DNA of 64,000 nt from Alteromonas sp. CI.11.F.A3 (GTDB lineage: Bacteria > Pseudomonadota > Gammaproteobacteria > Enterobacterales > Alteromonadaceae). Location of the stretch: NCBI RefSeq assembly GCF_032925565.1, contig NZ_CP136708.1:3162001-3226000 (forward strand), given 5' to 3'. The notes under the pieces were generated by a model, which did not search any database, had not been told where the DNA came from, and saw nothing but the letters and a program-made list of their open reading frames with translations. Positions 37,099 through 41,376 of the stretch are shown in pieces; position 1 is the first letter of the stretch, and each line of letters begins with the position of its first letter. Both the position numbers and the translations under genes were made by a program.

Positions 37099-37178
37099 CG
37101 ATAAAACCCGCCCTAAGCACAGTAGTTTATTAACGCATTTCCAGCATAATCATTTCCGAATCACTCGGAGATATGGAA

Positions 37179-38159
37179 ATGCCGCTACCTCGATACAAGC
37201 AAGTTAATTTAGATGTCACACCTTATTATCACTGCACATCACGTTGTGTGCGGCAGTCCTTCCTTTGTGGCGTTGATGCCAGCACAGGCAAAAACTACAA
37301 TCATCGCAGACAGTGGATTGTAGATAGGCTACACAAGCTCACTAAAACCTTTGCCATTGACCTTTGTGCCTATGCCGTAATGCACAACCATACTCACATA
37401 GTGGTTCATATCGCAAAGGCGAGAGCTGAACATTGGAGTATGGATGAAGTGTTACTTCGCTGGAAAAATTTTTATCGGTGCCCTTCAATAGTCCAACGTT
37501 ATCTTAATGAAGAGGCCCGTAGTTCATTATCTGAAGTAGAGCTTCAAAAAGTTGAAGAGTTAAGTGAGATTTACCGTCATCGCTTGTATAGCGTAAGTTG
37601 GTTTATGCGGCTATTAAATGAGTTTATTGCTCGAAAAGCGAATAGAGAAGATGAATGTTCAGGCTACTTTTGGGAGCGCCGATTTAAAAGCCAAGCGATA
37701 TTGTCTGAAAATGCGCTTGCAGCAACCATGGCCTATACCGATTTAAATCCCATCCGGGCCAATATAGCCAAAACTCCAGAGCAGTCTCACTTTACCAGTA
37801 TTCAGTACAGAATTAATGCTTTGAAAGTAAACAAAGTGCCTGCTCGGCTTATGCCATTTAATGATCAAGTTCCTATTAATGAGAACAGCCTGCCATTTAA
37901 TTTAACCGATTACTTAGTGCTGGTAGATGAAACCGGTCGCGTTATGCGCCCTGACAAGAAAGGTGCTATTTCCCCAAAAATTAAGCCTATCTTAGACAGG
38001 CTTAAGGTCTCTGGTAAATCTTGGATTACCCTCTCAACCAAACTAGAAAGGAAATTCACTGGCCCTATCGGCTCTGCAGAGCGAATTTGCGTGTTTGCAT
38101 CTGCTTGCGAATATGACAGAAAGCCAAACATTGCGAATGCCAGAAGGTATCTTCAATAA
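37179..38159 (+). CDS. Y1 (HUH) transposase-domain protein, RAYT-like
   Basis: A 326-residue protein of the IS200/REP-associated tyrosine transposase superfamily. The HUH motif is VMHNHTHIVVHI near residues 68-79 (His71 and His73). FWERRFKSQAI near residue 166 and AYTDLNPIRANI near residue 189 are the conserved second half with a candidate nucleophilic Tyr. ATG 37179 is preferred, with GGAG 8 nt upstream; ATG 37173 is only 2 nt from it. The C-terminal 100 residues are an extension absent from short IS200 enzymes. No IS200 ends, second orf or flanking duplications are visible, so it looks like a single domesticated or RAYT-type gene. It lies in the same window as the dispersed 14-bp repeats but is not flanked by them. 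Confidence 0.85.
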   Translation: MPLPRYKQVNLDVTPYYHCTSRCVRQSFLCGVDASTGKNYNHRRQWIVDRLHKLTKTFAIDLCAYAVMHNHTHIVVHIAKARAEHWSMDEVLLRWKNFYRCPSIVQRYLNEEARSSLSEVELQKVEELSEIYRHRLYSVSWFMRLLNEFIARKANREDECSGYFWERRFKSQAILSENALAATMAYTDLNPIRANIAKTPEQSHFTSIQYRINALKVNKVPARLMPFNDQVPINENSLPFNLTDYLVLVDETGRVMRPDKKGAISPKIKPILDRLKVSGKSWITLSTKLERKFTGPIGSAERICVFASACEYDRKPNIANARRYLQ

Positions 38160-38222
38160 ATTTTCAGGTTTGAATTCATAACGCGAAATCAACAAGGAAC
38201 GAAGCTAATATACCTTAATAGC

Positions 38223-39161
38223 CTAGTGAGAAGCATGCCTGGTTAACACATCTACAATTTCTTGTGATTTTGATAAGCGTCTGATGTCGTTAAACAACAA
38301 TTCAGCTTCGGGGTACTGTCTTTTTAAATAGCCACACCACTGCTTTATTCGATTGGGGTAGTATTTACCCTTATCACCGTAGATTTCATAGCCTGAATAG
38401 CGAATAAGCAATGCGGCCACATCTTCCCATGCCATTGGCGGCTCGCCGTTTCGAATACACCTTGCTAGGTTTGGCATGGCAAGCGCTCCCCTACCCACCA
38501 TTAAGTTAGTGCAGGCCGATTGCTCTTGGCAACGTTGAGCTTCTTCTGCATTCCAAATTTCACCATTTGCCACTAGTGGAATATTGGTGTTTTGCTTTAT
38601 TTTAGCAATCCATTCCCAGTAGGCTGGTGGCTTATAGCCTTCCGTTTTTGTTCTGGCGTGTACAACTAGCTCAGATGCGCCCGCTTCAGTAATAGCGATA
38701 GCATTTTCTATCGCAAGAGATTTGTCTTCAAATCCCAACCGAATTTTGGCTGATACAGGTTGTGAGGCGGGCACCGCATCGCGCACCGCTTTTACAATGT
38801 CGTGTAAAGCTTGGGTTTCTTTTAAAAGAACCGCACCGCCTTTGCTTTTATTAACGGTTTTTGCAGGGCAACCGAAATTTAAATCTACTCCAGGCGATCC
38901 CAAATCAACCGCAGTATAAGCATTTTCTGCCAACCATTGTGGGTGCTGCCCTAATAATTGGACACGCACTGGAACGCCGTTAGGGGTTTTGCCGCCATTA
39001 TGTAGCTCGGGGCATAGCTTGTAGAAGGTTTTATTAGGAAGCTTTTGATCCACTACTCTAACGAATTCAGTTACACACTGATCGAACCCACCTACATGGG
39101 TAAGCATATCTCGCATTAAATGGTCGACAACACCTTCCATAGGCGCCAGCATGATTTTCAT
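38223..39161 (-). CDS. dusC: tRNA-dihydrouridine(16) synthase
   Basis: A 312-residue FMN-dependent TIM-barrel enzyme reducing uridine in tRNA. It begins MLAPMEGVVDHLMRDMLT; DLNFGCPAKTVNKSKGGAVLLKE near residues 92-114 carries the catalytic Cys. AKIRLGFEDKS near residue 140, VHARTKTEGYKPPAYWEW near residue 167 and VANGEIWNAEEA near residue 196 are FMN-binding and family segments. The combination MAPMEGV with NFGCPA and RTKTEGYKPPA fits DusC. TTGGACACGCACT (38958-38970) resembles the dispersed repeat, but the encoded VRVQLLGQ is normal for the family. Confidence 0.93.
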   Translation of the reverse strand: MKIMLAPMEGVVDHLMRDMLTHVGGFDQCVTEFVRVVDQKLPNKTFYKLCPELHNGGKTPNGVPVRVQLLGQHPQWLAENAYTAVDLGSPGVDLNFGCPAKTVNKSKGGAVLLKETQALHDIVKAVRDAVPASQPVSAKIRLGFEDKSLAIENAIAITEAGASELVVHARTKTEGYKPPAYWEWIAKIKQNTNIPLVANGEIWNAEEAQRCQEQSACTNLMVGRGALAMPNLARCIRNGEPPMAWEDVAALLIRYSGYEIYGDKGKYYPNRIKQWCGYLKRQYPEAELLFNDIRRLSKSQEIVDVLTRHASH

Positions 39162-39267
39162 AACTAAATTTCGCTAAAACTGAGTGGTTAAAATGGGCGC
39201 GAGAGTGTAGCAAAGTGCGAGTTATATGACCATGCTATTTAAGTTTCGATAGGAAATTGTGTATTTA

Positions 39268-39342
39268 GAGTGACTGTCCAACTTTAATTTGAGTGACTGT
39301 CCTAGCCTTAACTGTTCAACCCTAACTCGAGTGTGTGTCCAA
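39268..39342. repeat. Cluster of three copies of the dispersed 14-bp repeat
   Basis: GAGTGACTGTCCAA (39268-39281), GAGTGACTGTCCTA (39291-39304) and GAGTGTGTGTCCAA (39329-39342) lie on the same strand. The third copy overlaps the 3' end of the DUF1289 gene, where it is read as Leu-Asp-Thr-His just before the stop codon. Confidence 0.9.
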
Positions 39343-39495
39343 CTTTTGGTTTTTTAGGCGGATTAGGACGTTTTGTTTTTGCTGTGTGTTGTAATTGGAC
39401 CAGTTGGTAATTTCCTTGATGGTGCGCTTACAACCGGTGCATACATCATCGGCGTCTAGCTTACAGTTGGCAATACAGGGTGACACTATATCCAC
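39322..39495 (-). CDS. DUF1289 small cysteine-rich protein
   Basis: A 57-residue open frame starting at GTG 39495, which overlaps the TAG stop of the preceding gene by one base (TAGTG), with AAGG upstream. The DUF1289 pattern is clear: VSPCIANCKLDADDVCTGC, with Cys at about 7, 11, 19 and 22, then the conserved RTIKEITNWSNYNTQQKQNVL with its Trp. The four cysteines probably bind a metal. The last residues, LDTHSS, are encoded by a copy of the dispersed repeat, so the native C-terminus seems to have been rewritten by the repeat. The function of the family is unknown. It is translationally coupled to the gene behind the MetJ operator. Confidence 0.88.
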   Translation of the reverse strand: MDIVSPCIANCKLDADDVCTGCKRTIKEITNWSNYNTQQKQNVLIRLKNQKLDTHSS

Positions 39496-39725
39496 TAATA
39501 CTTGGCCTTAAGGTTTTGATTTTCTGATGCAGTATTTTTAGCAATAAGAGAAGCATGTAGCATAGCATCAATCACTCGTTGCGTAGGCTCTTTGGCAGTC
39601 CACATACAAACATGCACACCGAACTTCGCATTCAGGTACGCGTCGAACTGGTTTTTATCTTCATAATCACCCTTCACCAGTTGTTGTTTATAGCCATCAT
39701 AAATTAATGCAGAAAATGTAAACAC
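39495..39725 (-). CDS. Uncharacterised 76-residue protein under a MetJ-type operator
   Basis: The reading frame opens at TTG 39752, but GTG 39725 is preferred: it is 3 nt after GAGGAGGCTC and leaves room for a promoter. The protein begins VFTFSALIYDGYKQQLVKGDY and contains FDAYLNAKFGVHVCMWTAKEPTQRVIDAML, with one Cys and several aromatic residues, and no signal or membrane segment. I do not recognise the family. The 5' region is unusual: a core promoter TTGAAT-17-TATAGT overlaps five tandem met boxes, and the Shine-Dalgarno is the 3' arm of a 10-bp hairpin (39728-39750). Its stop overlaps the DUF1289 start by 1 bp, so the pair is an operon, probably derepressed when S-adenosylmethionine is low. 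Confidence 0.72.
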   Translation of the reverse strand: MFTFSALIYDGYKQQLVKGDYEDKNQFDAYLNAKFGVHVCMWTAKEPTQRVIDAMLHASLIAKNTASENQNLKAKY

Positions 39726-39727
39726 GT

Positions 39728-39750
39728 GAGCCTCCTCATCGAGAAGGCTC
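39728..39750 (-). promoter_or_regulatory. Hairpin that sequesters the ribosome-binding site
   Basis: Read on the minus strand, GAGCCTTCTC and GAGGAGGCTC pair over 10 bp (one G-T pair) with a GAT loop. The 3' arm contains the Shine-Dalgarno GAGGAG of the GTG 39725 gene. If transcription begins at about 7 nt after the TATAGT box, only part of the 5' arm would be in the mRNA, so its effect is uncertain. Confidence 0.55.
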
Positions 39751-39751
39751 A

Positions 39752-39780
39752 ACTATACATCTAGACGTCTAAACATTCAA
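39752..39780 (-). promoter_or_regulatory. Sigma70-type promoter overlapped by the MetJ operator
   Basis: On the minus strand TTGAAT (39780-39775) and TATAGT (39757-39752) are 17 bp apart, a near-ideal spacing. The met boxes cover the -35, the spacer and the start of the -10, so bound repressor should block RNA polymerase. Confidence 0.65.
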
Positions 39781-39794
39781 ACATCTAAACGTCT
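39755..39794. promoter_or_regulatory. Five tandem MetJ operator boxes
   Basis: Five contiguous 8-bp units in exact register: starting at 39755, 39763, 39771, 39779 and 39787. Compared with the met box AGACGTCT they match 6, 8, 4, 6 and 7 of 8 positions; the unit at 39763-39770 is perfect. MetJ with S-adenosylmethionine binds two to five such boxes in gammaproteobacteria. The last box touches the stop codon of the M14 peptidase gene. Confidence 0.8.
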
Positions 39795-40707
39795 ATTTTA
39801 TATATTCCAACGCTGCGGTGATCACAGCCACTTGGGCAGCGTTACAGTTTTCAACCGTGGCATTAGCGCTATCAGGGTAAACTTCTGTTGTAGTTACAAA
39901 CTCTGCGTCTGTCATGCCACCACAAAGATATAATGCTTTTTTGTCGTAACAAATCACACCATCAGACAATAAGTCAGCACCTATAATTTTACCGCTATCA
40001 TCAGCAGGTGCAATATGAGTTACCTGCTTAACCGCATCTATAATAGCTTCCTGAAATGGCTTTTGTGGATTTGTGGTATTCGCCACTAGGTAAAAACCAT
40101 CAGGGATATTCCAATTATCATGGGTCGTTGCATCTCGTGATGCTAATGCAGGCCTAAACTCACTGTTATCGGTATCAGTGGTTTCATGTAAATCGACATG
40201 CAATGTAAATGGCAAGTTTAAGGATTCAACAAATGCCATTAGCTGCGCTGATTCCGGCGCTGGAGAATTAGGATAAAATGAACGATTAGGATCTAACGCA
40301 TACTGATCCCAACGGTTAATCGTCTCATAACCCCAAGGGCTAACACATGGAACTACAATGATGGTGAAGTCTTCTGCATACTCGCTTAGCTTAGTATTAA
40401 TAAACTGAAGCGCGCCCTGCACCCCACTGGTTTCATACCCATGTACACCGCCGGTAACTAGCACTGCTGGCTTGGCTGCGTCGGTATCTTTAGGTATATT
40501 CTTTGGAATTACGGCATACAACGGGTATCGAGACTCATCGTAAGGCAACGCGCCATACTGCTTTAATTCAAACCCTTCAGGAATACTCTCTAATTGCTTA
40601 AGTACCTCATCGCTGTACGAACGCTTAATAGTTTGGCGCTGTTTCCACTCTTCTTTCTCTTCTTCACCCCAAGGTTTTCCTGGCGTGCCGATAGGATAAT
40701 TTTGCAT
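39793..40707 (-). CDS. M14-family zinc carboxypeptidase-like protein
   Basis: A 304-residue cytosolic M14 metallopeptidase-like protein. The zinc ligands are His and Glu in VTGGVHGYETSGVQGALQF near residue 93, and His in LHVDLHETTDTDNSEF near residue 170; NRWDQYALDPNRSFYP near residue 131 carries the Asn-Arg substrate-binding motif. A later Glu in TTEVYPDSANATVENCNA is a candidate general base. No signal peptide is present. Related proteins are annotated as M14 carboxypeptidase or succinylglutamate desuccinylase/aspartoacylase-like; the substrate is unknown. It lies upstream of the MetJ-controlled pair on the same strand but is separated by their own promoter. Confidence 0.82.
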   Translation of the reverse strand: MQNYPIGTPGKPWGEEEKEEWKQRQTIKRSYSDEVLKQLESIPEGFELKQYGALPYDESRYPLYAVIPKNIPKDTDAAKPAVLVTGGVHGYETSGVQGALQFINTKLSEYAEDFTIIVVPCVSPWGYETINRWDQYALDPNRSFYPNSPAPESAQLMAFVESLNLPFTLHVDLHETTDTDNSEFRPALASRDATTHDNWNIPDGFYLVANTTNPQKPFQEAIIDAVKQVTHIAPADDSGKIIGADLLSDGVICYDKKALYLCGGMTDAEFVTTTEVYPDSANATVENCNAAQVAVITAALEYIK

Positions 40708-40803
40708 AAATAACCTCTTTGTTTATCCGGCTATATTATCAAGATGGTATTGGTTTGTATGTGGAATATCGATAAGAACGGGAGGAATTAAGGTGTAGAA
40801 ACG

Positions 40804-40828
40804 AAAAAGCCAACCCGAAGGTTGGCTT
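40804..40828 (-). terminator. Terminator of the gltX-side tRNA transcript
   Basis: AAGCCAACC, loop of 4, GGTTGGCTT forms a 9-bp stem; read on the minus strand it is followed by a T-tract. It lies 8 bp after the last tRNA-Glu gene and should end the tRNA-Ala/tRNA-Glu transcript. Confidence 0.9.
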
Positions 40829-40835
40829 AACGATA

Positions 40836-40911
40836 TGGCGTCCCCAAGGGGATTCGAACCCCTGTTACCGCCGTGAAAGGGCGGTGTCCTAGGCCTCTAG
40901 ACGATGGGGAC
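40836..40911 (-). tRNA. tRNA-Glu(TTC), copy 1 (promoter-distal)
   Basis: A 76-nt cloverleaf on the minus strand starting GTCCCCATCG, anticodon loop CTTTCAC with anticodon TTC, T-arm GGGGTTCGAATCCCC and encoded CCA. All four tRNA-Glu copies in this array are identical over the mature sequence. Confidence 0.97.
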
Positions 40912-41076
40912 AGAAATTTTGCTAGTGAAGTAAACTTCACTAAATTTCTGTAAGGAGAGGTGAGCTCCGCGAACCGAGCGACCTTTTCTTACAGAAGTAC
41001 TAAATTTTTGTCGCTGATAGTAATTTTTCAATCACTACCGGCCTATTTCACAGTTACGGACTGTGACACCGGAAAA

Positions 41077-41152
41077 TGGCGTCCCCAAGGGGATTCGAAC
41101 CCCTGTTACCGCCGTGAAAGGGCGGTGTCCTAGGCCTCTAGACGATGGGGAC
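41077..41152 (-). tRNA. tRNA-Glu(TTC), copy 2
   Basis: 76-nt cloverleaf identical to the other copies, anticodon TTC, encoded CCA, minus strand. Flanking spacer carries the CACAGT-TACGG-ACTGTG hairpin. Confidence 0.97.
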
Positions 41153-41376
41153 AAAAAATCTTCTTTCAAAAGCTACGCTTTTGAGATTTTTTGTAAGGTG
41201 AAGCGAGCTCTGCGAGCTGAGCGACATTATCCCTACAATCAATCAATTTCTGTAAGGAGAGGTGAGCTCTGCGAACCGAACGACCTTATCCTTACAAAAA
41301 CAAATTTTTGTCGCTGATAGTAACTTTTCAATCACTACCGGCCTATTTCACAGTTACGGACTGTGACACCGGAAAA

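Follow-up and report, generated by a model that had tools for sequence, protein, structure and literature searches.

The window analysed here is a 64,000-nucleotide stretch of the Alteromonas sp. CI.11.F.A3 genome (contig NZ_CP136708.1, positions 3,162,001 to 3,226,000), which comprises 4.66 Mb in one contig and carries a single metJ gene. The encoded MetJ protein was recognised by PF01340 (189.7 bits, E 2.6e-56) and, above cut-off, by the NCBIfam MetJ model. In keeping with the Alteromonas origin, a locus of Alteromonas sp. MMG017 shows 99% identity over the small protein described below. On the minus strand of the window, an M14-type peptidase gene is followed by a small open reading frame (ORF), a gene for a DUF1289 protein and a dihydrouridine synthase (dus) gene. 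The features relevant to this locus are as follows, in window coordinates:

39793..40707, minus strand: M14-type peptidase gene, upstream of the small ORF and on the same strand, with its stop 12 bp before the -35 hexamer
39755..39794, minus strand: predicted MetJ operator of five 8-bp MET boxes in register
39752..39780, minus strand: sigma-70-type promoter TTGAAT-17-TATAGT within the operator, with the perfect AGACGTCT in its spacer
39727..39751, minus strand: hairpin of 11 pairs with loop GAU directly after the -10 hexamer, an inverted repeat between the -10 and the start codon that pairs the Shine-Dalgarno sequence
39731..39736, minus strand: Shine-Dalgarno sequence AGGAGG in the 3' arm of the hairpin, 5 nt before the GTG start
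39495..39725, minus strand: small ORF of 76 codons (76 aa; GTG start at 39725, stop at 39495), with a conserved core of about 45 aa and a variable tail
39322..39495, minus strand: DUF1289 protein of 57 aa with four Cys, overlapping the small ORF by 1 bp (Pfam E 1.4e-19); an optional second gene of the transcript

Other elements were also seen around the locus. A GAGTGnnTGTCC-type repeat occurs at 39268-39340 and in 20 other places, amounting to 23 matches with at most one mismatch against 1.8 expected, and three such repeats lie at the end of or just behind the DUF1289 gene. A Y1-transposase-like ORF (37173-38159; Pfam E 0.011, below cut-off) is found nearby, and we presume that the repeats may be of the REP type and the ORF their transposase. 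The minus strand also carries, at 40839-41152, a pair of tRNA genes with equal scores, near a repeated stretch that gives near-identical spurious ORFs.

Read on the minus strand from 39794 to 39755, the operator consists of AGACGTTT AGATGTTT GAATGTTT AGACGTCT AGATGTAT, which match AGACGTCT at 7, 6, 4, 8 and 6 of 8 positions, respectively, and it covers the -35 hexamer TTGAAT (39780-39775) and the -10 hexamer TATAGT (39757-39752), spaced by 17 bp. We could thus confirm the arrangement described in an earlier note on this DNA, namely five in-register boxes, one perfect and one 7/8, over TTGAAT-17-TATAGT. The promoter hexamers by themselves are at chance level, with four found against 4.1 expected from shuffles of the region. 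Searching for two adjacent boxes with at most three mismatches yielded two matches in the window against 0.08 expected, a number equalled by one of 100 shuffles, and 17 matches in the whole genome (the two in the window included) against three for the reversed pattern. The best two-box match of the genome lies in the window and is tied with the metA promoter, each having two mismatches.

For a more quantitative comparison, a scoring matrix was built from six other met loci of the genome, with the window site excluded. Over five boxes the window site scored 36.3, compared to -2.3 for the best non-overlapping stretch of the window and 10.3 for the best of 20 shuffled windows. It also outscored all six met loci (metY-like, 26.5; metA, 22.8; metF/metJ, 21.2; metK, 19.6; aspartokinase, 1.0; serA, -1.4), although these six constitute the training set. 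Over two boxes, the window site (19.5) ranked second to metA (21.5), with shuffled windows reaching up to 17.6. The MET boxes thus stand far above chance and, judged by its sequence, the operator is real; we infer that MetJ would bind the 40-bp site.

Flanking regions were read at nine of the 17 genome matches, and seven genes could be named by NCBIfam. Six of these nine places are met-related: metA, the metF-metJ interval, aspartokinase, serA, O-acetylhomoserine sulfhydrylase (metY-like) and metK, with the sites lying upstream of the aspartokinase, metY-like and metK genes and adjoining serA. Three further sites (L009, L013 and L014), inside or at genes without an evident link, are probably chance matches. 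At the aspartokinase gene, the MetJ-type site (L007) is located just before a short ORF resembling a threonine-type leader peptide, and two controls may be stacked there.

Of 59 genomes of the genus, 55 were found to encode the small protein (duplicate loci L050 and L051 were removed before counting), and the predicted operator was present at every one of these 55 loci. Upstream box scores ranged from 6.0 to 10.8; none of 165 control stretches taken from these loci scored above 2.6, and the maximum elsewhere in the window was 3.6. The distance from the end of the best tandem box run to the start codon is 22-40 bp, and mostly 29-33 bp, at 54 of the 55 loci; at the exception, L018, the best-scoring run ends 60 bp before the start, and the conserved AGACGTCTAGATGTAT is also present nearer to it. 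The promoter pattern TTGnnn-17-TAnnnT with AGACGTC in the spacer was likewise found at 55/55 loci; AGACGTC was required in this pattern, which makes the 100% columns partly conditional, and no locus failed the requirement. Four genomes of the genus lack the small ORF. Three of them retain the M14 and dus genes, and in these no boxes were detected anywhere in the M14-dus interval (best score, 0.6), nor did the family profile reveal a relative of the small protein at the three loci. The M14 gene could not be located in the fourth, an assembly of 87% completeness.

The DUF1289 gene lies downstream of the small ORF at 44 of the 55 loci. Since 11 operator-bearing loci lack it, we rejected DUF1289 as the main target and conclude that the small ORF is the conserved target and DUF1289 a passenger. 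Of the two genes that the earlier note had placed under control of the operator, the small ORF is therefore retained, and DUF1289, a PF06945 member by its Pfam score, is not retained as a conserved target.

In a profile search of 395 genomes of the family, relatives of the small protein were recovered in five more genomes, all from one other genus (g3), where at least 5 of 13 genomes carry the ORF by profile. All five of these remote relatives have MET boxes upstream (scores, 5.6-7.4) in neighbourhoods that differ from those in Alteromonas. Three of these five ORFs adjoin tRNA-Leu and lie between a dipeptidyl-peptidase-like gene and triose-phosphate isomerase (identity tested in L102), and the remaining two have different neighbourhoods. 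The nearest recorded protein to this form is GPAL_1381 of Glaciecola pallidula. Six weak profile hits with box scores of at most 0.6 were taken as chance. No convincing relative was seen elsewhere among 295 genomes of the order, where weak hits were inspected in part. Weak hits of the profile searches had E values of 0.0003 to 0.01; the eight loci inspected had no boxes or no matching open frame and were dropped as chance, whereas the hits in G054, G253, G453 and G532, like the second ones in G151 and G162, lay outside the inspection.

Among the 395 family genomes, 27 contain the exact string AGACGTCTARATGTATA, in one copy each: 25 of the 32 genomes of the genus in this set, G215, and G297, a species of g3. 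In G215, filed under yet another genus (g7), the Alteromonas locus is present in nearly identical form (L107); contamination and recent transfer could not be told apart, and L107 was left out of the counts. In G297, the 17-bp AGACGTCTAGATGTATA is also found 84 bp before metK (named by NCBIfam), and since the same string precedes a metK gene, this case provides independent support for its serving as a MetJ site. The presence of a MetJ gene in the genome, the box scores above background and the conservation of the operator before both close and remote orthologues all support the predicted MetJ-repressed promoter and, with it, the suggestion of the earlier note that the small gene may be a new member of the MetJ regulon.

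The small ORF is under purifying selection, with a median dN/dS of 0.05 over the core (55 pairs within one clade). No Pfam family matched the protein above cut-off. A match to Phage_min_tail was set aside, as the window protein reached 15.5 bits against a cut-off of 39 (E 0.023 alone); this match appeared in 10 of 44 relatives, with a best E of 0.0012. Comparison with solved structures gave nothing below E 0.3 by sequence and weak, tied matches only by fold. The predicted fold is that of a small one-domain beta-beta-alpha-beta protein, and Gp2, RpoY (YkzG) and p56-like small binding proteins were considered as shared-fold candidates. Our guess is that the protein perhaps binds to, or regulates, some component required under methionine shortage.

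Between the -10 hexamer and the start codon lies an inverted repeat (39751-39727) that was absent from the earlier note. For its analysis across the genus, identical leaders were counted once, leaving 50 or 51 unique leaders of 55, depending on the stretch compared. Because leader sequences are too divergent to align well, each leader was folded singly and compared with its shuffles: all 50 unique leaders folded significantly (p < 0.05; mean z, -4.4), and a repeat run gave 49/50. Among control leaders, significance was reached by 0 of 42 unique leaders of dus and 3 of 36 of the M14 gene. The Shine-Dalgarno sequence is paired in 46 of 50 leaders, and the hairpin over it is lost in L058. The location of the hairpin is nearly constant, within the 25-36 nt that separate the start codon from the last box. 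RNAalifold, applied to an alignment of 32 chosen leaders, gave five consensus pairs only, four of them with change on both sides. Among five other met leaders of the genome, four showed no significant hairpin; the metA leader (L003, minus strand) has a weaker one near its Shine-Dalgarno sequence (p 0.03).

While the structure is kept across the genus, the arm sequences vary by clade. Pairing of each arm with its own partner gave a mean of -16.5 kcal/mol, compared to -9.7 kcal/mol with the arms of other leaders; native arms beat the mean of swapped arms in 50/50 leaders, and none of 10,000 permutations reached the native sum. In a thinned set of 25 leaders the corresponding values were -15.6 and -8.8 kcal/mol, and the permutation result was again 0/10,000. 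Only 20 of 50 leaders had their native arm ranked in the top three partners, because related leaders share arms. By these comparisons of sequence, the two arms of the hairpin co-evolve.

Relative to the promoter, the 5' arm of the hairpin starts at a median of nt 1 after the -10 hexamer (range, -3 to 6; 51 unique leaders). With the usual spacing, RNA should start at about nt 7 after the -10, inside the arm. As the 5' arm begins upstream of this expected +1, transcripts begun at the MetJ promoter would be expected to miss part of the hairpin. Accordingly shortened leaders, starting at nt 7, 8 or 9, had median folding energies of -2.2, -1.2 and -1.0 kcal/mol, compared to -14.5 kcal/mol for the full leader, and the median accessibility of the Shine-Dalgarno sequence rose from 0.01 to ∼0.35, a value at which the shortened leaders still pair part of it. 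For a start at nt 7, accessibility was higher than in the full RNA for 44 of the 51 leaders and did not rise in the other 7; the values are unreliable in 8 of the 51, where the Shine-Dalgarno match is only 3 nt, and with a match of at least 4 nt the rise was observed in 41 of 43.

A source of longer RNA is suggested by gene order. At 55/55 loci the M14 gene is on the same strand and stops 4-67 bp (median, 19) before the -35 hexamer, and by this gene geometry its RNA would enter the operator and the hairpin unless it ends there. In g3, the upstream gene is divergent at four of five loci and no hairpin was seen over the Shine-Dalgarno sequence, with start codons uncertain there; at L104, a hairpin of -10.2 kcal/mol immediately follows the boxes. 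This contrast is as would be expected if the hairpin silences read-through, and it points only weakly in that direction.

We propose that MetJ, with S-adenosylmethionine plentiful, would repress the small gene (and DUF1289 where present), and that a shortage would switch the gene on, because the 40-bp site would be a MetJ operator lying over the promoter of the gene. The hairpin that hides the Shine-Dalgarno sequence would be a second lock, at the RNA level, which the gene may need because the M14 gene runs into the promoter and leaves hardly any space, or none, in which a terminator could lie. Since RNA from the gene's own promoter would start inside the 5' arm, the complete hairpin would act mainly in RNA coming from the M14 gene. 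Such read-through RNA would form the complete hairpin and be poorly translated, whereas RNA begun at the MetJ promoter, without part of the 5' arm, would be translated, and MetJ would thereby become the gatekeeper of the small gene. The start site, the read-through and the effect on translation are what we infer here, and we regard this combination of MetJ repression with silencing of read-through by the hairpin, as in T4 lysozyme, as probable, though with considerable room for doubt.

The most serious competitor, which we nevertheless consider unlikely, is that the hairpin is the terminator of the upstream M14-peptidase gene placed behind the MetJ promoter, with the small gene an ordinary MetJ target. 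Many Alteromonas loci have no room for another terminator in the 4-67 bp before the promoter, and GGCC-type inverted repeats, read by eye, follow the M14 stop in the three ORF-less congeners. A T-rich stretch (at least six T in the eight nt after the hairpin, a threshold of our own choice) is present in 11 of 51 leaders, but it is missing in 40, including that of the window, and a terminator scan of the window did not report the hairpin. Neither the near-constant place of the hairpin nor its pairing with the Shine-Dalgarno sequence would be needed by a terminator. The hairpin may still, instead or in addition, end M14 transcripts, because of these 11 T-rich stretches and because the widest M14 gaps could hold a terminator. 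Attenuator, terminator and Rfam riboswitch were rejected as classifications of the leader, as there is no consistent T-tract and no Rfam family matches it; the eight Rfam hits in 38000-41200 are the two tRNAs and six weak ones elsewhere, below cut-offs.

Less probable still is that the hairpin acts in the MetJ transcript itself, which would start near the -10, with a trans-acting factor or RNA opening the Shine-Dalgarno sequence as a second layer of control. If transcription began at nt 4 or 5, the median folding energy would still be -9.1 or -5.5 kcal/mol, respectively. Purines lie at nt 2-4 and 10-14 after the -10, and pyrimidines strongly prevail at nts 6-9, where purines were counted in 1, 3, 8 and 8 of 51 leaders. 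The purines at nt 2-4 and the folding energy at nt 4 speak for this explanation; against it, starts 2-4 nt after the -10 hexamer are unusual for sigma-70 promoters, and the differences in arm sequence between clades mean that there is no conserved recognition sequence. It is very improbable that some other regulator uses the inverted repeat as its DNA operator. Repressor sites commonly abut the -10, as this repeat does, but it is pairing that is conserved and not sequence, and 87 of 514 pairs are G-U, which keep RNA symmetry and not DNA symmetry; we rejected a DNA dyad on these G-U pairs and the co-evolution of the arms. That the boxes are a chance run or a neighbour's, and the small ORF not a gene, has next to no probability: the promoter hexamers alone are at chance level, but box scores, the 55/59 genomes, the 55/55 operators, the 5/5 remote relatives, the low dN/dS, the ORF-less loci without boxes and the metK 17-mer all contradict it.

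If the favoured reading of MetJ repression with a read-through-silencing hairpin is right, a conserved small protein family would be added to a classical regulon, and the fact that its five-box operator outscores six met loci suggests a real role when methionine is short. It may also be a chromosomal case of a hairpin that silences read-through RNA but not RNA from its own promoter. A bolder formulation, whose chances we judge evenly balanced, is that a metabolite-repressor promoter is combined here with a self-truncating hairpin lock of the T4-lysozyme type on a chromosomal gene, giving MetJ tight control despite the co-directional gene, and that a new MetJ-regulated small-protein family has moved, together with its operator, into at least three chromosomal neighbourhoods.

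Several known systems bear comparison. In the IS10-type fold-back protection of transposase genes, an inverted repeat at the start silences RNA from outside; in distinction to that case, no mobile element was seen at the small gene. The locus shares with the MetJ regulon of gammaproteobacteria, as described in the main-text passages of PMC3228920 and PMC4239095, the tandem 8-bp boxes of AGACGTCT consensus over a promoter in a genome with metJ, and differs in its target, a family of small proteins that no Pfam model matches. The sites of the same genome at metA, metF/metJ, metK, phosphoglycerate dehydrogenase (serA) and aspartokinase agree with targets given in those passages of PMC4239095, which also count serA and thrABC among the MetJ targets of Alteromonadales, in agreement with the genome studied here. 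The small gene is not named in the main-text passages of either paper, and a supplementary listing under a locus tag is possible; in the literature searched, we found no paper pairing MetJ with DUF1289, nor any on the small gene. The closest parallel for the hairpin is provided by T4 gene e (lysozyme) and I-TevI, for which the relevant part of PMC3014915 describes long upstream transcripts whose ribosome-binding site is masked by a hairpin, and a promoter directly upstream that yields RNA without the 5' part of the structure. There, the arrangement serves phage timing, its 5' ends are mapped and its effect is 100-fold (PMC3014915), whereas here the promoter is chromosomal and repressor controlled, and the lock is predicted from sequence only.
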